A stretch of 64,000 nucleotides of DNA from Chlorops oryzae (Eukaryota > Arthropoda > Insecta > Diptera > Chloropidae), in NCBI GenBank assembly GCA_020466095.1, contig CM035807.1, forward strand, positions 112,855,786 through 112,919,785. The letters run 5' to 3'. Positions 1 to 35,752 of the stretch are shown in pieces. Position 1 is the stretch's first letter; each line of letters begins with the position of its first letter. Both the position numbers and the translations under genes were made by a program. The notes under the pieces are model-generated. The model saw only the letters and a list, made by a program, of their open reading frames with translations, was not told the origin of the DNA and did no database searches.

Positions 1-1117
1 TAGAATGAAAATTAAAAGTGAGAATAAGGAAACGAAAAATTATAAATAGCTTAATATATATCCTACAGCTTAACAGGCCAATTTATATTCCTTGGGCTAT
101 AGGAAAATGTACCAAAAAAAAACAATACATTTTTTCCAAGCAATTACGAAAACGTTCATTCCATTAAAGACCCTTGCAGAGGTACAGCCAGATACAATGG
201 ATGAGAACTTTTTAATTTCCCTTTTATGACTTCGAAACCTCGACCAATAATTTCGCTCTCATGTACAGTTTTAAGCCTTACTGGGGAATCACTAAACCAG
301 TGTCTAATTAAAATCAAGTTAAAAGCTCATTTGTTGAACGAATTTAACTTTTTATTGAACAAATAAAACCTCACGAGAACAAATTGTGGTGTGTCTGTTA
401 AAAAAAAAAATAAAAATAAAAACAGAGGACCCAATCCGCATTCAGAGTTCATGAACGTTCACGCAGAAACTTTAGAACTGCGAGAGCATTCCTACAGCAT
501 CTTGTTTTGATTTCGCTTGCTTCGTCGTTCATTTGAGAATAGTCCTCAAAAGTTTTACAAGCTTTCCGCAGAGGTTTTCAGTTGTCTCTATAAATGGCAA
601 AGAAGGAGGAACTTAGTTTTTTTTTTTTCTATATCGCATTGAGTAAATAAAAGATTATAGCACTGCGAAAAAGCTTTGAAAAAAAAAAACCTCAACTACT
701 TGCCACCACGATAAGACAATTTTCTGTGCTAGCAATTTCTGACTTTATGAGGGAAAAGTTTTTAAGTGAGAATATATTTTCTTTACTGAAATCCTCGAAG
801 GAATTATGAAATTAACATTCAAGTTATGAAACTAGGGTAATTTTAAGCTGCAGAGTTCTTTCTTCCTTTAGGCACTTTTCGTTAGATTTGAGGAAAAAAA
901 AAGAAAGGGATTTTATGATTTTTTCTTTGTGGAAGTTTTCAAGTCATTACTGTCGGAAATTCTTTGTTGGAATTAAGTGAATCTTGATCTAAAATAACTG
1001 GCTTTTTGTTGGCAACTCATTAAATTTAACATCAAAAATTATTGTTTTAAATCTTTTCTAAAAAATTTCTTGCTTTGAATTCATAATGAAAATGGGACAC
1101 TTCGCTGTTGGGTACAT
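1..1117. other. AT-rich sequence without a recognised gene
   Basis: No open frame with protein-like composition, splice pattern or RNA gene is visible on either strand. The stretch holds A and T homopolymers. It may be intergenic or an intron of Pde1c, whose N-terminal exons are not found in this window. Confidence 0.5.
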
Positions 1118-1879
1118 ATGGGTATTTCCAGAAAAAAGGAAATATTTTGTCACGTCCGAGCATATCTAATTGCTAGAGCTCGGATTTTGGATATTTTGAA
1201 TTTTTTTGAATTATTTGAATTTATTGAATATTTTGAATTTTTTTTGTTTTGCATTTAACTTTGCTTTTTGAATTTTTTATTCACTGAAGTAGGTTTTTTT
1301 TTTTTGTTAATTTGACAATTCAAAATTTTAAAAGGCATACTAAATCGAACTAATTTGGAATTTTTGACTTTGAATTTTTTGAATTTTTTTTTTGAATTTT
1401 TTTAAATATTTTTTGAATATTTTTTTGAATTTTTTTTTTCATTTTTTTACATATTCAAATTCCAAGGCATACTAATTGCTAACGCTCGGATTTTGTTGAC
1501 TTTTAAAAATGTAAGGCATACTTTATGGCGCCAAAATTTTTCTTAACAACATTTTGCGAATCAGTTTGGTGAAATCGAACTTCAAACCGCTTTTCTTACT
1601 TCAAAAAAATGCATATTGAAGTTAAAAATCGATTTGAATCTTGAATTTATGTGAGTTGAACAAAATTTTTACTCCCGAAAGTATGCATTAAATATTAAAA
1701 AGTCAACAAAATCCGATCCCTGCTAATTGCCTTTCTGATATGCATAAAATTTTGATAAATATCAAATTCCAGAAGGGCTCCGCGATAATAGTTAGAAACA
1801 AAATTACCATTTTCTACATTCTTCAATTCGGGACTTAAAATTGCTAAAGTAACTGTCACGTCCGTTCGGAAATACCCAT
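1118..1879. mobile_element. Non-autonomous TIR element (ATGGGTATTTCC ends)
   Basis: A 12-bp perfect inverted repeat, ATGGGTATTTCC at 1118-1129 and its complement at 1868-1879, bounds about 760 bp. Just inside both ends lies the shared word GTCACGTCCG in inverted orientation. The interior is mostly T-rich GAATTTTTT runs and two copies of a GCTCGGATTTTG word. No transposase frame is seen, so this is MITE-like. The superfamily is not assigned. Confidence 0.6.
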
Positions 1880-1901
1880 ATCATATGGGCCATATGTATT
1901 A

Positions 1902-3348
1902 GGGTGCCCCAAAATGAAAATTTCCCATTTAATCCTGAAAGTATGCAACGATTTTTTTGTTATAATGTTTTTGGGAAGATAATGGGACATAGCTTTGGAA
2001 CTATAAGGCCGGATATTACAGTGTATACTTAAGTTAAGGAAGCTTGAAGACTTAAGAACGCCTTAAGTGTCAAGCGGCTTAACAGTCAATTTTTTTTCCA
2101 AAACTTACGAAAATTGTTTTCGGCAGGCAACATTTGAAAAAACCTATATTTTTTGTTTATATTTTTTTAAAATTCGTAAAGTTAGTGAAATTCCTTCATT
2201 AAATTAATTTGAAAACTTATTTAAGGAGCACTTAAAATTTGTACTGTTAAAATGCTTTACAGACTTAAGGTTTACTTAAGTGCTAAGAAGACCTTAAGTA
2301 TGCACTGTAATATCGGGCCTCAGAGTAAAATTCTTATTTCGTTTAACAAATTACAAAGGAGTTCGTATTCTTTGAAATTGCATCAATATTTTAAACCAAA
2401 TCACATAAAATTGAGAAATTATGAAGCTTCCTTTGTAGATTTGTAAAATATCGTTACTATTCGGTAAAAAGTAACGACTACTGTAGTCAGTAATAAATAA
2501 CGTCTCGTTACTGATGGAAGTATCTCGTTACTAGTACTTTTTTGCACACATGCCAGCTGATGATTTCCGGAGTAATTAAGTACTAAAATAATGGGTCCGC
2601 AAAACCGTATGGTCGTAGGTAGAGTAAGTTGATATTTTATTACTAACTACTGAATGAAGAGTCAAAGAGCATGAGGGAGTTTTGAGTACTTTATCAACCT
2701 TGTATTCATTTAGAACAATAGCTGCAACTTCGGCCAAATTTTGCCGCGAGTCACCATGTTTTGGTGAAAAAGTTCAACTGTGGTGAATCACACCATAGCT
2801 CACACTATTGTTTGGTGTACCACGTAAAAGCTTTTGGCCGTAGTAGCAGCTATAGTTCTATATGCTTGAGTTTTTCAATGAATAAATGAGCAATATTTAT
2901 AAAAAAAAAAGAACGAGTACTTAGTAACGAGTAATTAGTAACGATTACTTCACCAAAAACAACGAATACACCCGAGTAGTGTAAATTTTTGCATTTTTAC
3001 AGCTCTACTGCTTTGTGTGAAGCCAAATTTTGTTCATAAAAATTGCTATTAATGACGCCTAAATAGCCTATAAAGTTAGTTTATTTTGAAGTTTATGTAA
3101 GTCAGAACAAATATTGAATACTTTTCCACCGACTATTACCTAAAAATCCTGAAAAATCTTGGCTAATAAAGCCGCTTACACCAAAAATTTGGAAAAGCGG
3201 GGCTTTTTAGGAAAATCCGTTTAGCACAACCTCTAAAAGTATTACTAAAAATTTTTTAAAAATTCTCAAAAATACTTTGACCCATAAGCTTTCGGAATCC
3301 TTACGTTTAACTATGAAATTCGAAAAAAAAATTTCTTTTGGGACACCC
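1902..3348. mobile_element. TIR element flanked by TA (GGGTGYCCCAAAA ends)
   Basis: The ends GGGTGCCCCAAAA (left) and the complement of GGGTGTCCCAAAA (right) are immediately flanked by TA on both sides. That fits a TA-duplicating DNA element of Tc1/mariner type; this assignment is inference. The 1.45-kb interior has no long frame. It carries a second inverted-repeat element at 2006-2321. Confidence 0.6.
2006..2321. mobile_element. Small nested TIR element
   Basis: About 25-bp imperfect inverted ends, reading GGCCGGATATTACAGTG on the left and GGCCCGATATTACAGTG on the complementary right end. They continue into ATACTTAAG on both sides. The interior repeats the words CTTAAG and TTAAGT. It lies wholly inside the 1902-3348 element, so it inserted later or is an internal foldback of it. 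Confidence 0.55.
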
Positions 3349-3535
3349 TAATATGTATGTGTATGTTCATGGAAAAGATGAATTGGGTATTATTGATGGG
3401 GAAATCTTTTTTATATTTTGGGAGTTGGCTTCTGATTGTAGCAATCCATTCTCTTAGTAATAAATAAAAATATATATACATATATAAAGAAGCTTCGACT
3501 TTGGTATGGTACTGAAATCAGTTAACCCATTGAAA

Positions 3536-3666
3536 GCCAAAGAATAGAAAACTTGCAAAAACTAAGTGATATTAGCAAAGCATATTAATCGTGTAGCTTC
3601 AAAGCTTTCTTTAACGATTTATTTTCAGTCAAATCATAATTGACTATACTGGTGGTCCTTCAAGGG
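3536..3666. mobile_element. TTAA-flanked mini-element (piggyBac-type)
   Basis: 131 bp starting CCC and ending GGG, flanked by TTAA on both sides (3532-3535 and 3667-3670). The TIRs are only approximate (CCCATTGAAAG against CCCTTGAAGG). TTAA target duplication with CCC...GGG ends is the piggyBac hallmark. There is no coding content. Confidence 0.5.
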
Positions 3667-3670
3667 TTAA

Positions 3671-4759
3671 TTGGTATAAATAAGTGACTATTATTTATTG
3701 TGTTAACATATTTACTAATTAAGACGTGTAAACACTGATGAAAATATGCTTCAAAAGCTCTTGTAGCTAACTCTGTTGAAAGTATTCAAGAATGATTCTT
3801 GCAGTCTCTCTTTCTCAAGAATATTATGTAATCCGTAATAAATGTTCTCAAGTTTAATTAGCCCATCAGTAATAAATGCACGTTGTAGAAATTTATGTAA
3901 TATCCTTCAAACCATATATCTATGTACATTTATTTTATGCACGTGTCTTCACTTGGCTGTACTCATAATAACAACCTACCATGCGACCCACACACCTATT
4001 GCTGCTACTTAGTGCTCTCACACTTCTTATTCCACTCGACACTCCACTCATCATAAAAATAATTACCGCATGCCTTGACTGCTTGCATGAACTTGTCTAG
4101 AATTCTTGCATTGCTGCACAACAAAAACAAAAAAATGCCTATCCTTTCGCTCTAACTAAAGCATGCTTTTCAAACCACTTTGGCCTAACTTCGTTTTGAA
4201 CAAACCATAATTAAACATTTTACATATTTTCTTGAATTTCTTTTCAACAATTTTCTTATGCACCACAACAAATGTTGGTTTGGTTTTCCAAGTTTATTTT
4301 TTCCATTTCTTTTTTATTTATTTTTTGTCTCCTTTTAAAAGGAGCTCTTCTTCCGAGTACACAAAAAAGCTTCACACACATTTTTAAAAAATTAATTTCA
4401 ATTTTATCTCATTCTTTTTTTTACCTTCCCTTTTACTCAGTTGTGGTGGTGCATAATTTGTTTGTATGCAATAAATTTTCTTCTGTTCTTTTTTTTACTC
4501 AAACATATAACATCCGAGTTGATTTCTTTTGTCAAAGTTTTCTTTTACCTTCAAGTTCTTTTTGATTTGCCCAGAGATAATATGGCAACAGTTTTTGTAT
4601 TTTTAATAATTTTTATTATTTTTTTTTTTTTTTCAATAAAAAATTTCCTTCTGAATGAAGACTAACAAAAAATATGTTCTCCTCTCTCTCTCTCTCTCCC
4701 TCAATATTTCGCTACGTCTCGCTGCGTGTGTTGAATGAACTTGATCGACTCTGAAATAG
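3671..4759. other. Sequence upstream of the first visible Pde1c exon, pyrimidine-rich
   Basis: No gene is recognised. The + strand becomes T/C-rich toward the exon, with a (TC)n run at about 4681-4700. This fits a long intron leading to the exon at 4760. Confidence 0.5.
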
Positions 4760-5009
4760 GCGTTTGGCTGATGAGGATGATGAACTGTCTGAAGTGCAAC
4801 CGGATGCCGTTCCACCTGAAGTTCGTGAGTGGCTGGCTTCCACGTTCACACGACAATTGGCCACGACTCGACGTCGGACGGACGAGAAGCCGAAATTCCG
4901 TTCGGTTGCACATGCAATACGCGCCGGCATATTTGTGGATCGAATATATCGTCGCGTCTCGAGTACGGCGCTGATGCAATTTCCTCCGGAAGTTGTAAAG
5001 GTTCTTAAG
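4760..5009 (+). CDS. Pde1c: Pde1c exon: N-terminal segment of Ca2+/calmodulin-dependent 3',5'-cyclic nucleotide phosphodiesterase
   Basis: This exon encodes the region just before the PDE catalytic core. Recognisable PDE1 landmarks in order are an acidic stretch (ADEDDELSEVQPDAVP), then EVREWLASTFTRQ, EKPKFRSVAHAIRAGIFVDR and PPEVVKVLK. All are strongly conserved between insect and mammalian PDE1. The acceptor is placed at the AG ending at 4759, and the donor AAG|gtaagt leaves the frame in phase 0 at 5009. That joins in frame to the exon at 7922. The upstream calmodulin-binding exons and start codon are not visible here. The acceptor choice is less certain than the donor, because the polypyrimidine tract lies about 60 nt upstream. 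Confidence 0.9.
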
Positions 5010-5548
5010 GTAAGTGTGCAACTTGAATTTAACTCTTAACTCGAAAAGAAACTGTGATTCTTCAACGAAAATTCTAAAGTTCGAAAGTTCGCCTAATGTG
5101 CCCCCATTCCATCCAAGGAGCAATTTATAGAAGCTACAAATATATCTTAAGTATATTTGTACATACATATGTATTTATATATGAAATCAAAAAGAAAATG
5201 AACTTTTGAAATTATTTCTAGTTAGTGAAGTGAAGTGCTTTGATAGTTTGTTCCGAACGCAATGATTTCGCATTGAAAATAATAAGATTTAAATTGCGGT
5301 TAAAACGTTAATTGGATGGAATGGGTTAAGAACTTAAACTAGAAAGATTTTTTGTGATTTTTAATTTTGAGGCTAGAATAGTGAAGAAGATAAAACCAAA
5401 AACCAAATATGGTACTTCATCTTTCTGTATCAGGATCTTTATTTTTTATTTGCTTCAGTAATCAGTACTTTGGATAAATTAAGTTTTGAGTATTTTTACT
5501 TAAATGTTTATATTTTTAATGCGAATGTGTTCCTAGATCATTCTTTGA
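5010..5548. other. Pde1c intron, start
   Basis: Intron sequence after the gtaagt donor at 5010. No embedded gene is seen. At 5538-5548 lies the left copy of the target duplication of the next element. Confidence 0.7.
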
Positions 5549-5906
5549 TGTGCATCAAGTTAGCATTACAGCACAAAAATTTTTTTCGGGAAATTCGAAA
5601 AAGTGCAAGCTAACTTGACACGAAAAAAGGACCTCCTCATATAAATGGCATCCTTTGAGGAATTTTTTTTTTCGAAACGGCACATGATAGCACAAACTGG
5701 GCACATTACAGCACAATAATTTTTTTCGGGAAATTCCAAAAAGTGCAAGCTAACTTGACACGAAAAAATTGACCTCATAAAAATGGCATCCCTTGAGGTC
5801 TCTTTTTTTTTTTTTGAAACGGCACATGTTAGCACAAACTGGGCACATTACAGCACAATAATTTTTTTGGGGAAATTCGAAAAAGTGCAAGCTAACTTGA
5901 TGCACA
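5549..5906. mobile_element. TIR element with perfect 16-bp ends, 11-bp target duplication and internal tandem repeats
   Basis: TGTGCATCAAGTTAGC at 5549-5564 is perfectly inverted at 5891-5906. The 11-bp word TCATTCTTTGA flanks it directly on both sides (5538-5548 and 5907-5917), a clean target-site duplication. The interior is about 2.5 copies of a ~140-bp tandem unit carrying GCACATTACAGCACAA and GTGCAAGCTAACTTGA. The unit therefore ends in a partial TIR. No coding capacity. Confidence 0.75.
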
Positions 5907-6382
5907 TCATTCTTTGACGTCAAAAGAAGAAACAAAATGCAAAAAATTGTACATTGTGTAATTTAGACTAAAGCCCAAGATCCAATATAGCGAGAGTGAG
6001 TGACGTCACGAAAATGTTTTGCGTGACGCATTTCAATCTCCAATGAGAGTTTTGCGTCACGCAGATGATAGCATAATTTCACTTCTAGTAATGCAATATT
6101 TGAACCAAGTACCAATCTAACGTGTACCGAGTACTCATAAAATTTATACGTTATCACGAGCTAAAATTTGAATGAAAAATTTTCAAAAAATTTCAAAATG
6201 AACCAAAACTTGCGAAATATTCTAAAAGCTCTTTCACGGAACAGTGAACAGTTTTTGTTTTATAAGTTTAAACGAGTATCCAATGGCGAGCACTCAAAAA
6301 ATAGCTACATCATTAACCTGTCAAATTGCCTCGCAACGAGAAATATTCAATTTTTTCTAACTTTTCTCGCATTGGAGCTTGA

Positions 6383-7338
6383 AGGCCAAAGTCCAACCTA
6401 GCGAGAGCTCGTTGCAAGAGAACGAGACGTCACGCAAATCTTTAGCGCAACGCATTCCAATCTCCAACGTCTCGTTCTGCGAGAACAGATGATAGATAAA
6501 TTTGTTTTTCTAGTCTAGCCTAGTGATTTAACATTTTTACTTTAATATATCTTATTTAGTGAAAAAAATATGTAGGGCCAAAAACGGAAAATGAGAACTG
6601 TTTTTTACCAGGTAGAATGTTTTTTTCTTGTTGGTTTAGGTACTTCCTAAGACATCAGAAAATCAACAATGATCGAGTACCAAACTGTGCGTACTCAAAA
6701 AAGTTTCTTCATCACTATTTGCTTCTCTGTTCGGCTGTCAAGCCCAAAATCCAACATTGCGAGAGCCCGATGCGAGAGCTCGTTGTGAGGCAATTTGACA
6801 GGCTAATGATGCACTTATTTTTTGAGTACTCGCTATTGGGTACTCGTTTAAACTTATAAAACAAAAACTGTTCACTGTTCAGTGAAAAAGAGCTAAACTA
6901 TTTCGCGAGCTTTGGTTCATTTTGAAAATTTTTTGAAAATCTTTGAAAATTTTGAATTAAAATTTAAACTCAGAGGATAACGTATAATTTTTATGAGTAC
7001 TCGGTACACGTTAGATTGGTACTTGGTTCAAATAATGCATTACTAGAAGCGAAATTTTGCTATCATCTGCGTGACGCAAAACTCTCATTGGAGATTGAAA
7101 TGCGTCACGCAAAACATTTTCGTGACGTCTCGCACTCTCGCATCGGGCTCTCGCAATATTGGATTTCGGGCATTAAATTTCCTCGCTGCGAGAAAATATC
7201 AAATTTTTGAATTTCTCTCGTTGCCAGCTCTCGCAACAAGTCACATTGGAGCTGGCTTCATATGATTGCATTCATTGAAACTGTTTTGACATTTCTCTGC
7301 GTGACGTCTCGCTCTCTCGCTAGGTTGGACTTGGGCCT
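6383..7338. mobile_element. Middle nested TIR element (AGGCCAAAGTCCAACC ends)
   Basis: The left end AGGCCAAAGTCCAACCTAGC is matched by the complement of 7319-7338. It sits inside the outer 5972-7412 element and encloses a further copy, so three inverted pairs are concentric. No coding content. Confidence 0.5.
6742..7171. mobile_element. Innermost nested TIR element (GCCCRAAATCCAAYATTGCG ends)
   Basis: GCCCAAAATCCAACATTGCG on the left matches the complement of the right end near 7152-7171. The match continues into GAGAGCCCGATGCGA. The ends are nearly the same as those of the element at 26280-26818. Confidence 0.5.
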
Positions 7339-7415
7339 TGAGTCATATAATTGAATGTTTTGAAATTTGTGTTCGTCGCGTCTCGGGCTCTCGCAATAGT
7401 GGATTTTGGGCTTAA

Positions 7416-7876
7416 AAGTGATTTTTTATTTATTTAATGGAAATTTTGTTTAAAAATGAAAAAGTTCATTAATAGTTTCTATGCCAATGGTTGGATCGAA
7501 AGGTGTTCTAGGGGCCGTTAATAGGGAATTTCATTACCCTTAATTTTATAGCTTAGAACTTCAAAGCGGTTAAGTATGTCCGGAGATAATTGGAATTTAC
7601 CAATCATACTTTTTTCCATAACTCAAAAAACGGGAAACAGATTTTATCTCAAAAACTGTTCTACTTAAAAATAATCCGACGATTTTATTCGGATTCAGCT
7701 AGAAATTTTGCTCGCAATTTTTTTTAAATTTTTGTAGACTAGTATATTTAGGGGGAAAATTCTTTCGCAGTAAATGGCCAAAGTCTCACACCTGTATGAG
7801 GAATCACCCACTAGAATTATGAATAGAAAAGAAAACCTACTCTCTTCTCACATCCTTCATTTAAATTCTCTCTTAC

Positions 7877-7913
<37 letters not shown>

Positions 7914-7921
7914 CTCAACAG
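7416..7921. other. End of Pde1c intron with (TC)n polypyrimidine tract
   Basis: No gene here. A ~40-bp TC repeat at about 7872-7911, followed by TTTTTCTCAACAG, forms an unusually long polypyrimidine tract. It runs directly into the acceptor at 7921. Confidence 0.75.
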
Positions 7922-9047
7922 ACTCTCGACGACTGGTCGTTCGACGTTTTTGCATTGGCAGACGCTGCCAATGGACAGCCCGTGAAGTACATAGGGTACG
8001 ATTTGCTCAATCGTTATGGTATCATACATAAATTCAAAATAGCCCCAGCAACGTTGGAAACGTTTCTTCATCGAATAGAGGAAGGCTATTGTCGCTTTCG
8101 CAATCCATATCATAATAACTTACATGCAGCGGACGTAACACAAACGGTCCATCATATGCTCTGTCAGACAGGCCTAATGAATTGGCTAACAGACTTGGAA
8201 ATCTATGCGACACTACTCGCCGCATTGATACATGATTACGAGCATACGGGCACCACGAATAATTTTCATGTTATGTCCGGTTCGGATACGGCGCTCCTTT
8301 ACAATGATCGTGCTGTTCTCGAGAATCATCATGTGAGCGCTGCATTCCGTTTGCTTAAGGACGACGATTGCAATATCCTATCGAATTTATCGAGAGAGGA
8401 ATTCCGTGAATTGCGAACGCTCATCATTGATATGGTACTCTCGACGGACATGTCCTTTCATTTTCAACAGCTAAAGAATATGAAAAACCTTCTGACACTC
8501 AACGAGGCAACGGTGGATAAATCGAAAGCGCTGGCGCTTGTTCTGCACTGTTGTGATATCTCGCATCCGGCAAAACGTTGGAATCTTCATCACCGCTGGA
8601 CGATGCTACTGCTCGAGGAGTTCTTTCGTCAGGGCGATCTGGAGCGTGAGCTGGGTCTGCCATTCAGTCCGTTGTGTGATCGAAATAATACTCTTGTCGC
8701 TGAATCGCAAATTGGTTTTATCGATTTCATCGTTGATCCGAGCATGTCGGTCATGGCCGATATGCTCGAGTACGTCCTCTTGCCCATTGCGCCGATGTGT
8801 AAAAATGTAAATGCCAGCATGGATATCGCTGACAGTGCCATTGAAGGGCCCGGCGGCAGTGCTAACCGTGGCGGCAGCATCGTTAACCCGTGCACAACAA
8901 TACAAGAATCTGGCGAAGATTGCTCGAATTCACCACCGAAATGTGTGGCCACCGATGAAAGTGGAAAGCACAAATTCACGATACGCAAACCATGGATACT
9001 TTTCCTAACAGAAAACAAAAAAATCTGGAAGGAGCAGGCCGTCAAGG
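7922..9047 (+). CDS. Pde1c: Pde1c exon: PDE1 catalytic domain
   Basis: This large exon encodes 375 codons and contains essentially the whole HD-type cyclic nucleotide phosphodiesterase domain. The enzyme hydrolyses cAMP/cGMP to 5'-nucleotides under Ca2+/calmodulin control. Visible landmarks are WSFDVFALADA at the start, the metal-binding NPYHNNLHAADVTQ (first His codon at 8111), the PDE signature HDYEHTGTTNNF (HD pair at 8231-8236), HHVSAAFRL, MVLSTDMSFHFQQ, CDISHPAKRW, LPFSPLCDR and the substrate-binding SQIGFIDFIV. A ~90-residue tail after the core is Ser/Gly-rich and looks like a variable linker. Acceptor at 7921, phase 0. The donor AAGG|gtgaga leaves phase 1, which matches the exon at 19836. 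It is the only exon between the two long introns. Confidence 0.96.
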
Positions 9048-9530
9048 GTGAGAACCGAAAATATGCGTCCGAATCATATGTCACTTAGCAGTTCCTCTTT
9101 ACTCTCATCACTTTTAACTTATGATTTTGTAAAAATGAATAAACTTAAAATATTAATTTTTCTATGGAATTTTATTTTTGTTTCATGTGTTCTAATTGGC
9201 TTTTATTTTTTTAAATTTTTTTTTTCTTTCTAAAAACGTCTTATTTTTTAAATTTATTATTTTAAAGCTTTTTTGAGTTCAACATTTTCAACAAAGGGAC
9301 CGACTGAAAAAGAAAAGAAACAAATTCTCAATGAAAAAAGTAGATCACCTTTTTCAACTAATAATAAAATATATTTGACCTAACTTATGGCTCACCTTTT
9401 AAATCAGAGACAAACCTTTAATAATGCTTGAAAAGGCTCAAGCACAATTCGTGGTAAACCCTCAAAATTTTAATTAGCTGGCAATTTCATTCAAATGTCA
9501 ATCAATAACAAGAAATGATAAGGATAAGCT
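9048..9530. other. Pde1c last intron, proximal part
   Basis: AT-rich intron between the donor at 9048 and the palindromic array. No gene or structured element is recognised. Confidence 0.7.
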
Positions 9531-12500
9531 TGTGTATTCGCTAAGCCTAGTTCAGACACCAAATGGCATAGCGAATACACGAACTTTAGTTGTGACATAT
9601 TTCATACACAAACTAATTTGGCCAATACACCAACTTTTTTGTCTTAGCTAGGCACGTTAGTTTTGGTGCGGGTCTGCGCTATGCCAGTTGGTGTCTGAAC
9701 TCTGTTCTTACGTCACGAATTACTGACAGAGGTCTTTGCGTGGGCGTAGCACAAAGAGTAGGCGTGGCAGAGTTACGAAAATAAACTTTTCCAACTCTGG
9801 GGCACAAAATTAAGCTAAATTCCGAATGTGGGTCCCATGGGTTCAAAATTGTGGATTTTAGAAAAACCCGTTTTCTGTTTGAGGGGGTTGGGGTGGTTGG
9901 ATTTCGAACATTTTTTGGGAATCTCTTAGATCTAGAGATAGAAGCGTCCATGCCAAATTTCAAGACCCTAGGGTAACTCCTTCTATGATTTTCCAAGAAA
10001 TGTATGGAGGTTAAGCGCTTGAACTCCATACATTTCTTGAAAATCATAGAAGGAGTTCCCTAGGGTCCTTGAAATTTGGCATGGACGCTTCTATCTCTAG
10101 ATCTAAGAGATTCCCAAAAAATTTTCGAAATCGAACCACCCCAACCCCTTCAAACAGAAAACGGGTTTTTCTAAAATCCACAATTTTGAACCCACCGGAC
10201 CCACATTCGGAATTTAGCTTACTTTTGTGCCCCAGAGTTGGAAAAGTTCAAGTTCGTAACGCTGCCACGCCTACTTTTTGTGCTACGCCCTCTTAAAGTC
10301 CTTTATCAGATATTCGTGACGTAAGAGCAGACTTAAGACGCGAACGTGAAAATGCTTGTCAAAAGCTTGTGTATTCGCTATGCTAGTTGTTTGAGTCTTA
10401 GCTAGGCATGTTATCTGAACTAGGTTCATACGTCACGAATTAGTGACAGAGGTCTTTGAGTGGGCGTAGCACAAAAAGTAGGCGTGGCAGAGTTACGAAA
10501 ATGAACTTTTCCAACTCTGGGGCACAAAATTAAGCTAAATTCTGAATGTGGGTCCCATGGGTTCAAAATTGTGGATTTTAGAAAAACCCGTTTTCTGTTT
10601 GAGGGGGTTGGGGTGGTTGGATTTCGAAAATTTTTTGGGAATCTCTTAGATCTAGAGATAGAAGCGTCCATGCCAAATTTCAAGACCCTAGGGTAACTCC
10701 TTCTATGATTTTCCAAGAAATGTATGGAGGTTAAGCGCTTGAACTCCATACATTTCTTGGAAAATCATAGAAGGAGTTACCCTAGGGTCTTGAAATTTGG
10801 CATGGACGCTTCTATCTCTAGATCTAAGAGATTCCCAAAAAATTTTCGAAATCGAACCACCCCAACCCCTCAAACAGAAAACGGGTTTTTCTAAAATCCA
10901 CAATTTTGAACCCACCGGACCCACATTCGGAATTTAGCTTACTTTTGTGCCCCAGAGTTGGAAAAGTTCAAGTTCGTAACGCTGCCACGCCTACTTTTTG
11001 TGCTACGCCCTCTTAAAGTCCTTTATCAGATATTCGTGACGTAAGAGCAGACTTAAGACGCGAACGTGAAAATGCTTGTCAAAAGCTTGTGTATTCGCTA
11101 TGCTAGTTGTTTGAGTCTTAGCTAGGCATGTTATCTGAACTAGGTTCATACGTCACGAATTAGTGACAGAGGTCTTTGAGTGGGCGTAGCACAAAAAGTA
11201 GGCGTGGCAGAGTTACGAAAATGAACTTTTCCAACTCTGGGGCACAAAATTAAGCTAAATTCTGAATGTGGGTCCCATGGGTTCAAAATTGTGGATTTTA
11301 GAAAAACCCGTTTTCTGTTTGAGGGGGTTGGGGTGGTTGGATTTCGAAAATTTTTTGGGAATCTCTTAGATCTAGAGATAGAAGCGTCCATGCCAAATTT
11401 CAAGACCCTAGGGTAACTCCTTCTATGATTTTCCAAGAAATGTATGGAGGTTAAGCGCTTGAACTCCATACATTTCTTGGAAAATCATAGAAGGAGTTAC
11501 CCTAGGGTCTTGAAATTTGGCATGGACGCTTCTATCTCTAGATCTAAGAGATTCCCAAAAAATTTTCGAAATCCAACCACCCCAACCCCCTCAAACAGAA
11601 AACGGGTTTTTCTAAAATCCACAATTTTGAACCCACCGGACCCACATTCGGAATTTAGCTTACTTTTGTGCCCCAGAGTTGGAAAAGTTCAAGTTCGTAA
11701 CGCTGCCACGCCTACTTTTTGTGCTACGCCCTCTTAAAGTCCTTTATCAGATATTCGTGACGTAAGAGCAGACTTAAGACGCGAACGTGAAAATGCTTGT
11801 CAAAAGCTTGTGTATTCGCTATGCTAGTTGTTTGAGTCTTAGCTAGGCATGTTATCTGAACTAGGTTCATACGTCACGAATTAGTGACAGAGGTCTTTGA
11901 GTGGGCGTAGCACAAAAAGTAGGCGTGGCAGAGTTACGAAAATGAACTTTTCCAACTCTGGGGCACAAAATTAAGCTAAATTCCGAATGTGGGTCCCATG
12001 GGTTCAAAATTGTGGATTTTAGAAAAACCCGTTTTCTGTTTGAGGGGGTTGGGGTGGTTGGATTTCGAAAATTTTTTGGGAATCTCTTAGATCTAGAGAT
12101 AGAAGCGTCCATGCCAAATTTCAAGACCCTAGGGTAACTCCTTCTATGATTTTCCAAGAAATGTATGGAGGTTAAGCGCTTGAACTCCATACATTTCTTG
12201 GAAAATCATAGAAGGAGTTACCCTAGGGTCTTGAAATTTGGCATGGACGCTTCTATCTCTAGATCTAAGAGATTCCCAAAAAATTTTCGAAATCCAACCA
12301 CCCCAACCCCCTCAAACAGAAAACGGGTTTTTCTAAAATCCACAATTTTGAACCCACCGGACCCACATTCGGAATTTAGCTTACTTTTGTGCCCCAGAGT
12401 TGGAAAAGTTCAAGTTCGTAACGCTGCCACGCCTACTTTTTGTGCTACGCCCTCTTAAAGTCCTTTATCAGATATTCGTGACGTAAGAGCAGACTTAAGA

Positions 12501-15500
12501 CGCGAACGTGAAAATGCTTGTCAAAAGCTTGTGTATTCGCTATGCTAGTTGTTTGAGTCTTAGCTAGGCATGTTATCTGAACTAGGTTCATACGTCACGA
12601 ATTAGTGACAGAGGTCTTTGAGTGGGCGTAGCACAAAAAGTAGGCGTGGCAGAGTTACGAAAATGAACTTTTCCAACTCTGGGGCACAAAATTAAGCTAA
12701 ATTCCGAATGTGGGTCCCATGGGTTCAAAATTGTGGATTTTAGAAAAACCCGTTTTCTGTTTGAGGGGGTTGGGGTGGTTGGATTTCGAAAATTTTTTGG
12801 GAATCTCTTAGATCTAGAGATAGAAGCGTCCATGCCAAATTTCAAGACCCTAGGGTAACTCCTTCTATGATTTTCCAAGAAATGTATGGAGGTTAAGCGC
12901 TTGAACTCCATACATTTCTTGGAAAATCATAGAAGGAGTTACCCTAGGGTCTTGAAATTTGGCATGGACGCTTCTATCTCTAGATCTAAGAGATTCCCAA
13001 AAAATTTTCGAAATCCAACCACCCCAACCCCCTCAAACAGAAAACGGGTTTTTCTAAAATCCACAATTTTGAACCCACCGGACCCACATTCGGAATTTAG
13101 CTTACTTTTGTGCCCCAGAGTTGGAAAAGTTCAAGTTGTAACGCTGCCACGCCTACTTTTTGTGCTACGCCCTCTTAAAGTCCTTTATCAGATATTCGTG
13201 ACGTAAGAGCAGACTTAAGACGCGAACGTGAAAATGCTTGTCAAAAGCTTGTGTATTCGCTATGCTAGTTGTTTGAGTCTTAGCTAGGCATGTTATCTGA
13301 ACTAGGTTCATACGTCACGAATTAGTGACAGAGGTCTTTGAGTGGGCGTAGCACAAAAAGTAGGCGTGGCAGAGTTACGAAAATGAACTTTTCCAACTCT
13401 GGGGCACAAAATTAAGCTAAATTCCGAATGTGGGTCCCATGGGTTCAAAATTGTGGATTTTAGAAAAACCCGTTTTCTGTTTGAGGGGGTTGGGGTGGTT
13501 GGATTTCGAACATTTTTTGGGAATCTCTTAGATCTAGAGATAGAAGCGTCCATGCCAAATTTCAAGACCCTAGGGTAACTCCTTCTATGATTTTCCAAGA
13601 AATGTATGGAGGTTAAGCGCTTGAACTCCATACATTTCTTGGAAAATCATAGAAGGAGTTACCCTAGGGTCTTGAAATTTGGCATGGACGCTTCTATCTC
13701 TAGATCTAAAGATTCCCAAAAAATTTTCGAAATCCAACCCCCCAACCCCCTCAAACAGAAAACGGGTTTTTCTAAAATCCACAATTTTGAACCCACCGGA
13801 CCCACATTCGGAATTTAGCTTACTTTTGTGCCCCAGAGTTGGAAAAGTTCAAGTTGTAACGCTGCCACGCCTACTTTTTGTGCTACGCCCTCTTAAAGTC
13901 CTTTATCAGATATTCGTGACGTAAGAGCAGACTTAAGACGCGAACGTGAAAATGCTTGTCAAAAGCTTGTGTATTCGCTATGCTAGTTGTTTGAGTCTTA
14001 GCTAGGCATGTTATCTGAACTAGGTTCATACGTCACGAATTAGTGACAGAGGTCTTTGAGTGGGCGTAGCACAAAAAGTAGGCGTGGCAGAGTTACGAAA
14101 ATGAACTTTTCCAACTCTGGGGCACAAAATTAAGCTAAATTCCGAATGTGGGTCCCATGGGTTCAAAATTGTGGATTTTAGAAAAACCCGTTTTCTGTTT
14201 GGGGGGTTGGGGTGGTTGGATTTCGAACATTTTTTGGGAATCTCTTAGATCTAGAGATAGAAGCGTCCATGCCAAATTTCAAGACCCTAGGGTAACTCCT
14301 TCTATGATTTTCCAAGAAATGTATGGAGGTTAAGCGCTTGAACTCCATACATTTCTTGGAAAATCATAGAAGGAGTTACCCTAGGGTCTTGAAATTTGGC
14401 ATGGACGCTTCTATCTCTAGATCTAAAGATTCCCAAAAAATTTTCGAAATCCAACCACCCCAACCCCCTCAAACAGAAAACGGGTTTTTCTAAAATCCAC
14501 AATTTTGAACCCCCGGACCCACATTCGGAATTTAGCTTACTTTTGTGCCCCAGAGTTGGAAAAGTTCAAGTTGTAACGCTGCCACGCCTACTTTTTGTGC
14601 TACGCCCTCTTAAAGTCCTTTATCAGATATTCGTGACGTAAGAGCAGACTTAAGACGCGAACGTGAAAATGCTTGTCAAAAGCTTGTGTATTCGCTATGC
14701 TAGTTGTTTGAGTCTTAGCTAGGCATGTTATCTGAACTAGGTTCATACGTCACGAATTAGTGACAGAGGTCTTTGAGTGGGCGTAGCACAAAAATAGGCG
14801 GGCAGAGTTACGAAAATGAACTTTTCCAACTCTGGGGCACAAAATTAAGCTAAATTCCGAATGTGGGTCCCATGGGTTCAAAATTGTGGATTTTAGAAAA
14901 ACCCGTTTTCTGTTTGAGGGGGTTGGGGTGGTTGGATTTCGAACATTTTTTGGGAATCTCTTAGATCTAGAGATAGAAGCGTCCATGCCAAATTTCAAGA
15001 CCCTAGGGTAACTCCTTCTATGATTTTCCAAGAAATGTATGGAGGTTAAGCGCTTGAACTCCATACATTTCTTGGAAAATCATAGAAGGAGTTACCCTAG
15101 GGTCTTGAAATTTGGCATGGACGCTTCTATCTCTAGATCTAAGAGATTCCCAAAAAATTTTCGAAATCCAACCCCCCAACCCCCTCAAACAGAAAACGGG
15201 TTTTTCTAAAATCCACAATTTTGAACCCACCGGACCCACATTCGGAATTTAGCTTACTTTTGTGCCCCAGAGTTGGAAAAGTTCAAGTTGTAAGCTGCCA
15301 CGCCTACTTTTTGTGCTACGCCCTCTTAAAGTCCTTTATCAGATATTCGTGACGTAAGAGCAGACTTAAGACGCGAACGTGAAAATGCTTGTCAAAAGCT
15401 TGTGTATTCGCTATGCTAGTTGTTTGAGTCTTAGCTAGGCATGTTATCTGAACTAGGTTCATACGTCACGAATTAGTGACAGAGGTCTTTGAGTGGGCGT

Positions 15501-18276
15501 AGCACAAAAATAGGCGGGCAGAGTTACGAAAATGAACTTTTCCAACTCTGGGGCACAAAATTAACTAAATTCCGAATGTGGGTCCCATGGGTTCAAAATT
15601 GTGGATTTTGAAAAAACCCGTTTTCTGTTTGAGGGGGTTGGGGTGGTTGGATTTCGAACATTTTTTGGGAATCTCTTAGATCTAGAGATAGAAGCGTCCA
15701 TGCCAAATTTCAAGACCCTAGGGTAACTCCTTCTATGATTTTCCAAGAAATGTATGGAGGTTAAGCGCTTGAACTCCATACATTTCTTGGAAAATCATAG
15801 AAGGAGTTACCCTAGGGTCTTGAAATTTGGCATGGACGCTTCTATCTCTAGATCTAAGAGATTCCCAAAAAATTTTCGAAATCCAACCACCCCAACCCCC
15901 TCAAACAGAAAACGGGTTTTTCTAAAATCCACAATTTTGAACCCACCGGACCCACATTCGGAATTTAGCTTACTTTTGTGCCCCAGAGTTGGAAAAGTTC
16001 AAGTTGTAACGCTGCCACGCCTACTTTTTGTGCTACGCCCTCTTAAAGTCCTTTATCAGATATTCGTGACGTAAGAGCAGACTTAAGACGCGAACGTGAA
16101 AATGCTTGTCAAAAGCTTGTGTATTCGCTATGCTAGTTGTTTGAGTCTTAGCTAGGCATGTTATCTGAACTAGGTTCATACGTCACGAATTAGTGACAGA
16201 GGTCTTTGAGTGGGCGTAGCACAAAAAGTAGGCGTGGCAGAGTTACGAAAATGAACTTTTCCAACTCTGGGGCACAAAATTAAGCTAAATTCCGAATGTG
16301 GGTCCCATGGGTTCAAAATTGTGGATTTTAGAAAAACCCGTTTTCTGTTTGAGGGGGTTGGGGTGGTTGGATTTCGAACATTTTTTGGGAATCTCTTAGA
16401 TCTAGAGATAGAAGCGTCCATGCCAAATTTCAAGACCCTAGGGTAACTCCTTCTATGATTTTCCAAGAAATGTATGGAGGTTAAGCGCTTGAACTCCATA
16501 CATTTCTTGGAAAATCATAGAAGGAGTTACCCTAGGGTCTTGAAATTTGGCATGGACGCTTCTATCTCTAGATCTAAGAGATTCCCAAAAAATTTTCGAA
16601 ATCCAACCCACCCCAACCCCCTCAAACAGAAAACGGGTTTTTCTAAAATCCACAATTTTGAACCCACCGGACCCACATTCGGAATTTAGCTTACTTTTGT
16701 GCCCCAGAGTTGGAAAAGTTCAAGTTCGTAACGCTGCCACGCCTACTTTTTGTGCTACGCCCTCTTAAAGTCCTTTATCAGATATTCGTGACGTAAGAGC
16801 AGACTTAAGACGCGAACGTGAAAATGCTTGTCAAAAGCTTGTGTATTCGCTATGCTAGTTGTTTGAGTCTTAGCTAGGCATGTTATCTGAACTAGGTTCA
16901 TACGTCACGAATTAGTGACAGAGGTCTTTGAGTGGGCGTAGCACAAAAAGTAGGCGTGGCAGAGTTACGAAAATGAACTTTTCCAACTCTGGGGCACAAA
17001 ATTAAGCTAAATTCCGAATGTGGGTCCCATGGGTTCAAAATTGTGGATTTTAGAAAAACCCGTTTTCTGTTTGAGGGGGTTGGGGTGGTTGGATTTCGAA
17101 CATTTTTTGGGAATCTCTTAGATCTAGAGATAGAAGCGTCCATGCCAAATTTCAAGACCCTAGGGTAACTCCTTCTATGATTTTCCAAGAAATGTATGGA
17201 GGTTAAGCGCTTGAACTCCATACATTTCTTGGAAAATCATAGAAGGAGTTACCCTAGGGTCTTGAAATTTGGCATGGACGCTTCTATCTCTAGATCTAAG
17301 AGATTCCCAAAAAATTTTCGAAATCCAACCACCCCAACCCCCTCAAACAGAAAACGGGTTTTTCTAAAATCCACAATTTTGAACCCACGGACCCACATTC
17401 GGAATTTAGCTTACTTTTGTGCCCCAGAGTTGGAAAAGTTCAAGTTCGTAACGCTGCCACGCCTACTTTTTGTGCTACGCCCTCTTAAGCCTTATCAATT
17501 TCGTGAAATAAGAGAGCTTAAGGGCTGAAATTTGAAAAGCTTTATTCGCTAGAGTTTTTGAATCAACACATTAACGAACGGTTTCAACCACAATTTGACC
17601 AGAATCTTTAGTCGTGCCAAAGTAGGGTCAAGTTCGAATGAACTTTTCACTGGCACAAAATTACTAAATTCAGTGGCCAGGTTCAAAATTGGATTTAGAA
17701 AACCCGCAGGGTGGGTGTGACGAAATTTTTTGGAATTTTGTTAGAATGGTCACCAACAAATGGTATCCTATGATTTTCGAAGTTGGATAACCTTGAACTC
17801 CATACATTTCTTGGAAAATCATAGAAGGAGTTACCCTAGGGTCTTGAAATTTGGCATGGACGCTTCTATCTCTAGATCTAAGAGATTCCCAAAAAATTTT
17901 CGAAATCCAACCACCCCAACCCCCTCAAACAGAAAACGGGTTTTTCTAAAATCCACAATTTTGAACCCACCGGACCCACATTCGGAATTTAGCTTACTTT
18001 TGTGCCCCAGAGTTGGAAAAGTTCAAGTTCGTAACGCTGCCACGCCTACTTTTTGTGCTACGCCCACTCAAAGACCTCTGTCACTAATTCGTGACGTAAG
18101 AACAGAGTTCAGACACCAACTGGCATAGCGCAGACCCGCACCAAAACCAACGTGCCTAGCTAAGACGCAATATTTTGAGTCTTGGCTAAATTATTTTGTG
18201 TACGAAATGTGTCACCACAAAGGTTTGTGTATTCGCTATGTCATTTGTTGTCTGGACTAGGCTTAGCGAATACACA
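9531..18276. repeat. Giant tandem array of ~720-bp long-palindrome units bracketed by inverted ends
   Basis: About 12 units with centres near 10018, 10738, 11459, 12180, 12901, 13621, 14338, 15054, 15769, 16489, 17211 and a degenerate one near 17790, so the period is 715-722 bp. Each unit is two arms of roughly 270-300 bp that are almost complementary. They meet at ATGTATGGAG and CTCCATACAT around a 14-nt loop (GTTAAGCGCTTGAA). Units are separated by a ~120-bp spacer holding ATTCGTGACGTA and its complement. The whole block begins and ends with a 28-bp inverted repeat (9531-9558 and 18249-18276, one mismatch) that starts TGTGTATTCGCTAAGCC. It lies entirely within the last Pde1c intron, so Pde1c pre-mRNA would contain about a dozen long hairpins. 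No target duplication was found. Frames of about 107 codons occur on both strands, but these are mirror images of the palindrome and not genes. Confidence 0.93.
17487..17800. repeat. Degenerate, deletion-ridden segment of the palindromic array
   Basis: The stretch follows the consensus unit in order but with many scattered small deletions. Adjacent sequence on both sides is nearly perfect unit again (from about 17795 on). The pattern resembles an unpolished long-read consensus more than biological decay, so the number of units here is uncertain. Confidence 0.65.
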
Positions 18277-19835
18277 ATCCTTTGACAAGCTGTTTTCACG
18301 TTCGCTTCTTAAGTCTTTGATCTATTATTTTCGCTTTTTATAACAGAACTGCACAAACGGAAAGTGAATACAAAGGAACCATGTATTTAGAAGCAGAAGC
18401 CATCACATTTATAAGATTTGAAAATACAAAAGATCTTCCGAATGGGGGAAAACATTTATATATGACATAGCATACTTACCGACGAAGTTCTTCCGGAAAA
18501 CCTTATGTTTTCCACCAATTTGAAACACCTTTGCTGTTTTCCTTACCCAAGGAAATATTTAAAATTTATTCATTGCAAAGTGTGCTGGTGGCTCAAACAG
18601 AAGCATACTTACCATTTAAGTTCTCGAAAAAAAAATCTAGCCTTTGAGAAAAAATGATGCCCGAGAAATGCGGATTTCAGTACAAAAATTCTTCTGATTC
18701 ACCAGGCGAACAGGAAAAGCAGAAGGTGGATGCCAAAATTTCAAGTCGTTATATCTCGGAAACTACGAAGAGTTTTGGGGTTTTGAAAATTTTGGTTTTT
18801 TCGTTATTTTTTGAAGTTTTTTTGAAATATTTTGTTTGGCGGGAAAATAAAGCCGTTGTATTTTTTTGAATTTAGTACATTTATCGGGCTTAACTGTTTC
18901 AAAATGGCATTTCCTACAGGGTTTTTGAAATTTTTTTTTTCTTAAATGGTTCCTCAGATCCTAAAGAAAATTCCCATGGAGAAAACTCCTGGGAAATTCC
19001 ACGTTTTCCCCCTATTTGAAGCACTTTTCGCATTTTCCTTACCCAAGGAAATATGAAAAATTTATTCATTGCAAAGTGTGCTAGAGGCCCCAACAGAAGA
19101 TTTGATAGATAGTGGTATTGGCTTTGATACGCAACCAACCATAATATGTTATTTAAGCGTTAATATATATTTTTTTCCGTAAAAGTTAAAGAACTGAAAA
19201 TTTTTCAGAAAGTCAATAGTAGATCCCAGACCAGAGCTGAAAAAATATTTTCAAAAATATTCCTTTTGTCACCGTTGCCACCTTAATGCAAAACTCTTAA
19301 ATAAATCGCGGCAACAAACAAAAAGTTTAATTTTGTAAGCTTGTGTTATTCTGATTTTTTTTCAATAAAATAAAGAATTCTCTCATTAGAGGGTTAAGGT
19401 TTACAAAAGAAAAAAAAATCTCGTTACATAGTTTCTTTATGTACAGATGGCAATGTTCCATATAAATCAAGTGAAAATTCCTTTCCCGATATTTAAGCAA
19501 AAGCGCTTTTTAAAAAAAAACAGCAAGACACCCACGTCTACGTTACGAAATCCGTTCGTACGTAATAAACGCTGTTCATACGGCGTGACGAAGCGAATGA
19601 AGAAGAATGAATGAACGAATGAAAACACTTCGATCAAAATTATTTTCCAATAAATCATCATGGTGAGACCATAACATTTTTAGCATTTTTTGCTCCATTT
19701 TTTTTAATTCAAAGTAAATTTTTTTCATTTCGATTTCAATTTCATTTTTAATTTCAATCAGTAATTCAATATATAATAACAAGGTGTTTGCTATGAAATG
19801 TGGATTTTAATTGATTTTGATTTTTCGATGAACAG
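18277..19835. repeat. Pde1c last intron, distal part with a dispersed repeat family
   Basis: Two partial copies of a dispersed repeat lie here, at about 18471-18625 and 18990-19110. Shared words are TTTTCCTTACCCAAGGAAATAT and TTATTCATTGCAAAGTGTGCT. A third copy, inverted, is at 28380-28445. The word AGCATACTTACC occurs at both ends of the first copy. The rest is AT-rich with no gene seen. Confidence 0.6.
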
Positions 19836-26279: not shown

Positions 26280-26818
26280 AGCCCAAAATCCAATATTGCG
26301 AGAGCCCGAGACGAGACGCACACAAATTGCAAAACATTCAATCGTATGGCTCAAGCTCCAATGTATCGCACTGCAAGACCTCGTAGAAAGAAAAGTTTGA
26401 AAAATTGAATATTTCTCGTTGCGAGGCAATTTGACAGGTTAATGATGTAGCTATTTTTTGAGTACTCGCTATTTATTGGGTACTCGATTAAACTAATAAA
26501 ATAAAAGCTGTTCACTGTTCCGTGAAAAAGACCTTTTAAAATAATTTGCGAGTTTTGGTTCATTTTGAAAATTGTTTGAAAATTTTTGAAAATTTTTCAA
26601 AAAAAAAATTTTAGCTCAAGTCATAACGTATAAATTTTATGAGTACTCGGTACACGTTAGATTGGTACTTGGTTCAAATATTGCATTACTAGAAGCGAAA
26701 TTATGCTATCATCTGCGTGACGCAAAACTCTCATTGGAGATTGAAATGTGTCACGCAAAAGATTTTCGTAACGTCGCGCACTCTCGCAACGGGCTCTCGC
26801 AATATTGGATTTTGGGCT
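26280..26818. mobile_element. Solo TIR element of the AGCCCAAAATCC family (TTA duplication)
   Basis: Near-perfect inverted ends (AGCCCAAAATCCAATATTGC and its complement, continuing GAGAGCCC) are bounded by TTA on both sides (26277-26279 and 26819-26821). The 3-bp TTA duplication suggests PIF/Harbinger. The interior is itself a foldback and matches blocks of the nested cluster at 5972-7412, so this is the simple form of that family. Confidence 0.75.
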
Positions 26819-26896
26819 TTAGAGTAGAAAAAGGAAATGCCTATTAAAATTTTTTTCTAGATCTTTTTATAGAGCATTTCAGCTAAGTCCATACCA

Positions 26897-30018: not shown

Positions 30019-30181
30019 ACACTATTTACATGTCAAAAAATTTCGATAATGAAACGCACTTTTTGTGGACTCGAGACGCGCGGGGATCTGGTATGGCAGC
30101 TTTTTCTCCCATCCCCCTGCGTCCCTTGCGGACGAAAATTTGTTTCATTATCGAAATGTGTCTTAACGTGTAAATGGTGTA
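30019..30181. mobile_element. Small TIR element at the left edge of the first duplication
   Basis: ACACTATTTACATGTC...TTTCGATAATGAAAC (30019-30055) is imperfectly inverted at about 30143-30181. The interior has a TCCCCCTGCGTCCC block. The duplicated copy at 36346 starts inside this element, so the duplication breakpoint lies within it. Confidence 0.5.
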
Positions 30182-31913: not shown

Positions 31914-31939
31914 ATCATCAGCGTTACAGCTCGGGGTGA
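31361..31939 (+). pseudogene. CycY: Cyclin Y copy 1, truncated by a LINE junction
   Basis: Starts with the same [13 protein letters not shown]-terminus as the full copies and is identical through residue ~184 (NRQSDH). At 31913/31914 it runs into the 3' end of a minus-strand LINE and stops after a few foreign codons (192 aa in all). The cyclin box and second exon are missing and are not found downstream before the next copy. The remaining protein would keep the N-myristoylation signal, the Ser/Gly-rich region and the pre-box segment but could not bind a CDK. It is most likely a non-functional partial copy. Confidence 0.85.
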
Positions 31940-32928: not shown

Positions 32929-33253
32929 GTTTATTCTCGGTTAGAAACCTTTCGACTGTTTCTTTATGTTGCTTAAAAAAATTCCTAGGGTTATTTGCAA
33001 TAAATTCATTGTTTATTTCCATGACCTCCCGGTTTTGCGCGTTTTTTTTTCTTCCTCTTGCATAGTTTATTGGCAATTCTCCGTTTGCTATTGTAGTCTT
33101 CCTGGTTTTCTATGGTGTTGTTTTCCAGCATTTTCTTCCTTGCACTATTTTTTCTGTTAATGGCTTCCTCACATTCTTCACCGAACCATGTTTCTCGTCT
33201 TTGCGCCTCCTCTGTCCCTATTACTTCTTGCGCCGCCCTCGTTATAGCGGTGG

Positions 33254-34146: not shown

Positions 34147-34329
34147 AACTGTTTCTATATATCTTTCTTTTTACGCCTTGCTTTGTTTCTCCTTTTTTTC
34201 GTTGATGATGATTCACATGATCTTTTTCCGAGGCGGGTAGTGAACCCAGCGCTCAACCCTAACATCCTAGGGGGTACGCTGTTGTATATTTGCTAGTATC
34301 CGATTTTTCTTCTCTTCTGCTCCAACATC

Positions 34330-35530: not shown

Positions 35531-35752
35531 CCGCCCGCGTCACCAATTTCGCTTTTTTATCTGTTTTCCGCACTTTTTCAAATATTGAATTACACTGCTG
35601 TATGTTAGAGTCACTGTCTCAAATATCTACTTTTATGGTTATCCAATATTTTTTCAAAATTTTCAAATAATTGCTTTTGCTCCGATTTTTTAAAACACCT
35701 CCGTCGTATAGCGTTGCCACACCAGCAACCAATAAAACAAATGCATATATAA

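Follow-up and report, generated by a model that had tools for sequence, protein, structure and literature searches.

Tetris, a foldback transposon of Drosophila virilis, is modular and non-autonomous with long inverted ends. Its internal tandem repeats, units of about 220 bp inside the terminal repeats, grow into satellite-like arrays; it has many rearranged forms and 8-10 bp target-site duplications, and no coding capacity is reported for it (PMC4079207). Galileo, a P-superfamily transposon with foldback-like ends, has inverted ends that vary in length and contain direct repeats of about 210 bp, and also occurs as two-end-only and solo-end copies (PMC3573991). HINE and DINE-1, non-autonomous Helentrons, carry inverted repeats of about 13 bp in subterminal position and a short hairpin close to the 3' end, and have tandem repeats between the end modules (PMC4067079, PMC7492417). 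The satellite TmSat2 of Tribolium madens consists of tandem monomers of about 704 bp with imperfect inverted arms of about 300 bp, also forms inverted subarrays, and occurs as a minor satellite of putative (peri)centromeric regions that span megabases (PMC13081366). The hp-CG4068 locus consists of tandem hairpins in variable copy number, which yield Dicer-2-dependent siRNAs with a target (PMC10317233).

The window analyzed here, 64,000 nucleotides of Chlorops oryzae DNA, contains an array of long hairpins in an intron of a Pde1c-like gene. The array is very probably part of a mobile-element copy that lacks its left modules; the element would be non-autonomous, dispersed and modular, with a foldback-like body whose core has been multiplied locally. 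The features are as follows.

9048..19835, + strand: last intron of the Pde1c-like gene, holding the whole preserved element (splice sites reconstructed; tblastn with five fly PDE1 proteins)
9530..19350, + strand: probable element copy as preserved, without left modules, from an edge at about 9526-9530 to the right terminus at about 19348-19350
9530..10015, + strand: left 486-bp inverted end (outer domain O, 9530-9690, plus arm P); 93% gap-free inverted match to 17792-18277
9687..17506, + strand: tandem palindromic units, 11 near-intact, period 715-722 bp (loop positions and arm alignment)
17480..17792, + strand: left half of hairpin 12, read as damaged consensus (comparison with the unit upstream)
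17792..18277, - strand: right 486-bp inverted end (arm plus outer domain); inverted match to 9530-10015
18281..18335, - strand: E domain adjoining the outer domain, common to many other copies
18507..19099, + strand: R497, 1.2 copies of a repeat of about 497 bp; arrays of it lie beside the module at other loci
19224..19350, + strand: terminal domain X, with a 13-14 bp subterminal repeat (19306-19319), a short hairpin (19323-19342) and the terminus; 42 genome copies of the motif

The sequence-only reading had placed the array in the last intron of Pde1c. The donor GT at 9048, the acceptor AG before 19836 and tblastn of the five fly PDE1 proteins confirm this placement, with the flanking exons at 7919-9047 and from 19836 onward. 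The spliced product reads ...WKEQAVK-DAEARAAAAALEEAKSKENEGDDV-stop; at the splice point the fly homologues have DAEARA (3 of 5) or DAETRA (1 of 5), and the Ceratitis homologue is different.

About 12 long hairpins had been described, in head-to-tail units of about 720 bp with arms of about 270-300 bp and a 14-nt loop. This description is borne out by 11 near-intact hairpins, all in direct orientation, and a partly damaged twelfth. The loop motif lies at 10011, 10731, 11451, 12172, 12893, 13613, 14330, 15046, 15761, 16481 and 17203, the period is 715-722 bp, and the spacer is 14 nt in 11 of 11 hairpins. The arms are 291-324 nt long, mostly about 304 nt, and 92-95% complementary (identity 91.7-95.1% after reverse complementing). 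The other ten units are 97.6-99.7% identical to the query unit over 651-722 bp. The array spans 9530-18277 including hairpin 12, one half of which is read as damaged assembly consensus. Its ends, earlier put at 9531 and 18276, coincide with the outer edges of the 486-bp inverted repeat, so that the whole array itself has inverted ends on both sides. The outer 160 bp of this repeat are mostly absent from the internal units and are also found at other genome sites, some of them flanking single hairpins. One unit has a predicted RNA fold of -558.8 kcal/mol (20 shuffles, mean -186.7; z = -65.5), a fold in which the long inverted repeat can pair as dsRNA. An Rfam search returned 0 matches at the gathering threshold.

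Compared with the unit upstream, the left half of hairpin 12 lacks 142 bases, has 5 extra ones and shows 6 mismatches; a few of these gaps are alignment ends. Real decay was rejected for this stretch in favour of consensus error, and the half is read as a failed consensus, not biology. Single-base deletions are present in several other units. These defects would suit an array that is mostly an artefact of assembling long reads at a palindrome, but that explanation is hardly credible, as comparable arrays stand at many loci, each with locus-specific variants, and the units all point the same way and are joined by a linker that is not palindromic. Missed-adapter reads are not expected to give such an arrangement.

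The hairpin centre has 351 genome copies at no more than 2 mismatches (reversed control, 0), a count taken from an imperfect assembly. The 100 listed places, all on contigs C1 and C2, fall into 23 loci with at most 14 hairpins each, spread along the chromosome-size contigs; further arrays may lie outside the assembled sequence. At least 165 genome matches were obtained for the unit query (11 of 858 candidates scored) and at least 40, on C1-C4, for the outer domain (40 of 175 candidates scored). The hairpin and unit counts rule out a locus private to the Pde1c intron. The 31 sequences examined, namely the Pde1c locus and 30 others chosen for a match to the unit or to the outer domain, share modules that stand in related orders. 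Low-copy forms have the same flanking domains around one hairpin (L031), two (L030) or three (L029). Foldback-type features were found in the form of long terminal inverted repeats (486 bp, 93% in the Pde1c copy; 549 bp, 93% in L018; 556 bp, 91% in L019; 547 bp, 93% in L031) and of tandem repeats (R497) within the inverted ends. At L041, L043 and L048, R497 copies flank the module on both sides in inverted orientation; at the other R497 loci, including the Pde1c copy, it lies on one side only within the stretch at hand.

To the left of the array, positions 1-9529 of the window gave one 96-bp match to the 30 other loci; to its right, modules common to other copies run as far as 19350. Similarity breaks sharply at the right terminus in the 19 copies aligned. 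The left terminus motif has 30 genome copies (controls for both termini, 0). Left and right ends pair in the same orientation three times, about 0.3-1.6 kb apart; that only 3 of 30 left ends have a nearby same-orientation right end of the kind searched, and that the left end of the Pde1c copy is missing, count against a mobile element. The upstream 2 kb was examined for five right ends, of which L053 and L062 were picked since their near context already showed family sequence. Subterminal repeats occur at both family ends (TCGCGGCAACAAA right, TTTGTTGCCGCGA left), and the Pde1c copy retains only the right one. The hairpin near the 3' end, AAGTTTA / TAAACTT, is perfect in 13 of the 19 aligned copies and has one mismatch in the other 6, including the Pde1c copy. 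An 11-bp direct match, TAAGCTTGTGT, at 9525-9535 and 19336-19346 of the Pde1c copy was rejected as a target-site duplication because it lies mostly inside element-derived sequence at both places; another candidate at this copy is a 9-bp match with one mismatch, at 18712. No target-site duplication was evident in the flanks examined for other copies.

By description alone, the family resembles Tetris in its modular, non-autonomous build, inverted ends and expanding tandem repeats, and differs from it in having amplified a whole long hairpin at its centre (PMC4079207). The likeness to Galileo, likewise by description alone, lies in inverted ends of variable length that contain direct repeats; the Galileo repeats are not described as hairpins (PMC3573991). 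With HINE and DINE-1 the family shares subterminal inverted repeats (12-15 bp, at both ends), a hairpin near the 3' terminus, and tandem repeats between end modules (PMC4067079, PMC7492417). It differs in its long foldback body with hairpin monomers, and its ends can also be read as an outer inverted repeat. The left subterminal repeat is set back by some 20 nt or more from the start of the shared left sequence (a start placed only approximately), in contrast to the published 2-4 nt from the terminus, and for this reason the family was not assigned to HINE. The superfamily may be Helentron-type or TIR-type.

Arms were compared in hairpins with both arms near full length (n = 71, at 15 of the 31 sequences; 10 of 12 in the Pde1c array). 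In 64 of the 71 the arms belong to two sequence classes, A and B, which diverge by 7.85%, against 1.3-1.6% within loci and 3.3-3.9% between loci. For 60 of the 66 A arms and 63 of the 76 B arms, the nearest arm of the same class is found at the locus itself. A search with one arm ORF gave no protein in the database used that has three 5-residue words in common with it, and a coding repeat was rejected.

The array had been suggested to be a hairpin-RNA gene, a self-silencing transposon cluster or a structural satellite; the transposon cluster fits best, since the same hairpin and end domains recur at many loci and do not suit a single hairpin-RNA gene. Such a gene, dedicated like hp-CG4068 to intronic tandem hairpins yielding AGO2-loaded endo-siRNAs against a defined target, would agree with the very stable fold and the position in a gene intron, and single transcripts with tandem hairpins are known, with 20 copies in D. 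melanogaster and 9 in D. simulans (PMC10317233). It is very unlikely for a dispersed high-copy family. Changes on both sides of the stem were 0 of 27 changed cells in the Pde1c array, i.e. uncompensated, and over the 10 loci with at least 3 near-full-length hairpins 9 two-sided paired changes stand against 325 one-sided ones; these counts give no sign of selection on pairing. The 54 two-sided changes at C2_6.60, of which 48 are unpaired and 6 paired, probably stem from the opposite orientation of its two subarrays. The arms form two old classes that differ by about 8% and are not refined duplexes, and the arm ORF gave no candidate in the database. The likeness to hp-CG4068 is one of tandem hairpins in variable copy number; siRNAs and a target are described there (PMC10317233), and the family here is high-copy.

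The sequence-only reading had counted the same palindrome occurring as an ordinary high-copy satellite against itself; a high-copy repeat is largely what the palindrome proves to be. An ordinary structural satellite with palindromic monomers, dispersed other than by transposition, would account for the 710-730 bp spacing in 71 of 74 adjacent pairs among the hairpins listed, the limit of 14 per listed locus, the arms homogenized within loci and the opposite-orientation subarrays at C2:6.6M; tandem palindromic monomers of similar size and inverted subarrays are known from TmSat2 (704 bp, arms of about 300 bp; PMC13081366). It is nonetheless quite unlikely. Unlike TmSat2 (PMC13081366), the arrays here are short and lie within dispersed element copies, one of them in a gene intron; single-hairpin copies occur, the outer domains are conserved and the termini are sharp at different sites.

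Under the preferred reading as a mobile element, the body would be foldback-like with long inverted modules, and the ends would be short conserved inverted sequences with small hairpins. The core unit, an asymmetric palindrome made up of arm A, loop, arm B and a short linker, probably arose once and spread along with the element. Its amplification and homogenization would then have taken place locus by locus, with unequal exchange or replication slippage at the hairpins as the most likely means. Transcription through Pde1c would give a nascent intron with a chain of duplexes of about 300 bp, which in the simplest proposal would be removed together with the intron and be processed in part by Dicer-2 or ADAR. 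An unlikely extension is that copies in transcribed introns serve as dsRNA sources, with putative siRNAs silencing the family in trans; array length would then track a balance between element amplification and self-silencing.

The family joins two usually separate subjects, mobile elements of the foldback type from which tandem arrays start, and satellites built of one long palindrome per monomer. Because its single-, few- and many-hairpin copies coexist in one genome, the passage from mobile element to hairpin array can be followed step by step. The copy in the Pde1c intron is a direct test case for arrays that feed RNAi or disturb the splicing of a conserved gene.

Part of the family's dispersal could be by recombination or segmental duplication, because module order is variable and several loci have half modules only. 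A flipped loop within the L049 array was rejected as a whole-hairpin inversion, since the unit retains its arms and linker and the tip alone is flipped. The inverted repeat of L029 extends about 620 bp past the shared modules, and at C2:112.03M about 6.07 kb is repeated, with flanks 99% identical.

The hairpin array lies inside the last intron of a Pde1c-like gene. Fly PDE1 proteins (n=5) match the window at 4755-5009 and 7919-9070, and the C-terminus resumes past a donor GT (9048) and an acceptor AG directly before 19836 (...KEQAVK-DAEARAAAAALEEAKSKENEGDDV-stop); at this point the homologues read DAEARA (three of five) or DAETRA (one of five), and the Ceratitis protein differs. Because the two splice sites restore the C-terminus, the last intron is placed at 9048-19835 and encloses the array, where the sequence-only reading had put it. 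The closest named PDE1 among the matches listed is that of Lucilia cuprina (83%). The Pde1c copy is most simply read as an insertion tolerated within the intron. An earlier intron of the gene holds a 142-bp tandem repeat (5564-5900, 2.4 copies).

The array consists of 11 near-intact head-to-tail hairpins with loops at 10011-17203, arms mostly of about 304 nt, arm complementarity of 91.7-95.1% and a 14-nt spacer in all 11. The count of about 12 made from the sequence alone is borne out by a twelfth hairpin with a damaged left half (17480-17792), a deletion-ridden version of the upstream unit (142 bases deleted, 6 mismatches and 5 inserted, a few gaps being alignment ends) that is read as unpolished consensus. 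A single unit is predicted to fold at -558.8 kcal/mol (20 shuffles as control, z -65.5). The array limits proposed earlier are the outer edges of a bounding inverted repeat (486 bp, 93%, no gaps), the outer 160 bp of which survive inside internal units just as short remnants (19-46 bp matches).

The assembly searched comprises 442 Mb, with the window located on contig C2 (G000:C2), and the array belongs to a dispersed family. At least 165 matches were found with the unit and at least 40, spread over contigs C1-C4, with the outer domain (11 of 858 and 40 of 175 candidates scored, respectively). A 34-nt pattern of the hairpin centre, with up to 2 mismatches, has 351 genome matches (reversed control, 0), and the 100 of these that are listed lie in 23 loci. 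Among the matches listed, the biggest loci hold 14 centres each and neighbour spacing is 710-730 bp in 71 of 74 adjacent pairs; loop orientation is opposite in 8 of the 74. C2:6.6M has a junction between two oppositely oriented hairpin subarrays (L015 1895-8773). C2:112.03M carries the array with its flank twice, at a distance of about 6.07 kb (L009 1000-2040 and 7069-8110); the flanks are 99.2% identical, and the repeat is a higher-order duplication.

Modules were mapped in 31 sequences (the window's array, 10 further arrays and 20 outer-domain loci). The modules in common are P (arm), O (outer domain), E (beside O) and R497, a repeat of about 497 bp that makes arrays adjoining the module; lower case denotes inversion. 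The single hairpin at L031 has the typical order E-O-P-p-o-e, and the window's array, L029 and L030 carry tandem Pp units joined by a linker bearing E in either orientation. Partial or rearranged forms make up many of the 20 outer-domain loci. At three loci (L041, L043, L048) R497 flanks the module in inverted orientation on both sides. L018 and L019 have inverted ends of 549-556 bp; those of L029 extend to 1278 bp at 98.2%, and their outer 620 bp had no match in the other fetched loci. To the right of the window's copy follow E, 1.2 copies of R497 and the terminal domain X, to about 19350; on the left it lacks partner modules, window positions 1-9529 showing a single 96-bp match to the other loci.

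The ends of the family are conserved. The right-terminal motif has 42 genome copies with up to 3 mismatches (control, 0), and in 19 aligned copies similarity breaks sharply a few nt beyond a short terminal hairpin, which is perfect in 13 and has one mismatch in 6. P, E or Y pieces of the family occur in the upstream 2 kb of four of five right ends, two of these four having been chosen because family sequence was already visible around them; at L068, the fifth, the stretch adjoining X is the only part recognised. The left terminus, CAGTGG[CT]TTTGTTGCCGCGA..., has 30 copies (control, 0). A left and a right end stand together in one orientation at just three places (C3:34.80M, C3:14.14M and C1:142.33M), with 0.3-1.6 kb between them. 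Read by eye, both ends have TTTGTTGCCGCGA in common, inverted, and further out also TAACAC[TA]AGTTTAC. In several features the ends agree with non-autonomous Helentrons, but their left spacing differs from the 2-4 nt published for these (PMC4067079), and a TIR element is equally possible.

Arms of 71 hairpins from 15 loci were classed by nearness to the left or right arms of the window's array. The two classes, A and B, are 7.85% apart, and 64 hairpins have one arm of each; the seven AA or BB exceptions are at C1_148.0 (2), C2_104.2, C2_6.02, C2_6.60, L030 and L031. On the arm tree the labels require 4 changes (shuffles, 44.2), and 60 of 66 A arms and 63 of 76 B arms share their locus with the nearest same-class neighbour. 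The asymmetric unit thus predates the spread, and the same-locus neighbours indicate that homogenisation or amplification of arrays was local. Transposition would account for the spread, and unequal exchange or hairpin-prone replication may have amplified the arrays.

Pairing changes were scored at 10 loci (20,387 cells, 19,141 of them forming pairs, G-U included). Of 325 one-sided changes, 128 lead from paired to unpaired and 116 from unpaired to paired, while 77 keep the cell paired and 4 keep it unpaired. Two-sided changes comprise 9 paired and 51 unpaired, of which 6 and 48, respectively, are at C2_6.60. In the window's array 27 cells are changed, none of them on both sides: 11 changes break a pair, 9 restore one and 7 are neutral. 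Restoring changes are over-represented per site there because about 200 mismatched cells stand against about 3,000 paired ones, the sole result tending towards maintenance of pairing. Their excess suggests sequence exchange between arms, and could also reflect old variation held in common. Exchange is also what a hairpin at L049 (701-1346) points to, with its loop tip flipped and its arms and linker in the neighbours' orientation.

The nearest mobile-element precedent is Tetris, with arrays seeded within a foldback element (PMC4079207), and the nearest for long palindromic monomers is TmSat2 (PMC13081366); Cg_HINE is a precedent for satellite-like arrays borne by Helentron-type elements (PMC7492417), and hp-CG4068 for tandem hairpins, which there do yield siRNAs (PMC10317233). 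The Chlorops array might give rise to dsRNA. Among the titles and abstract openings listed from an open-licence library, none was recognised as describing a mobile element whose core is a tandem array of long hairpins.

Other features of the window are as follows; the best cyclin-Y match among those listed is 82% identical, and the retrotransposon remains have a reverse transcriptase match and an endonuclease match under the curated cut-off.

6779-7175 and 26415-26821: repeat of about 400 bp, 89% identical, separate from the hairpin array
37400-51267 and 30089-38164: three near-identical copies of a cyclin-Y-like gene region, with a direct tandem duplication (6.96 kb, 98.7%) and an earlier copy that is partial (1.8 kb at 99.2%); each long copy with a trypsin-like gene (first by family match, second by ORF similarity)
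31924-34170, minus strand: non-LTR retrotransposon remains, adjoining the position at which the first cyclin-Y copy breaks off
56067-57084: 132-bp tandem repeat, about 7.8 copies, 96% matches
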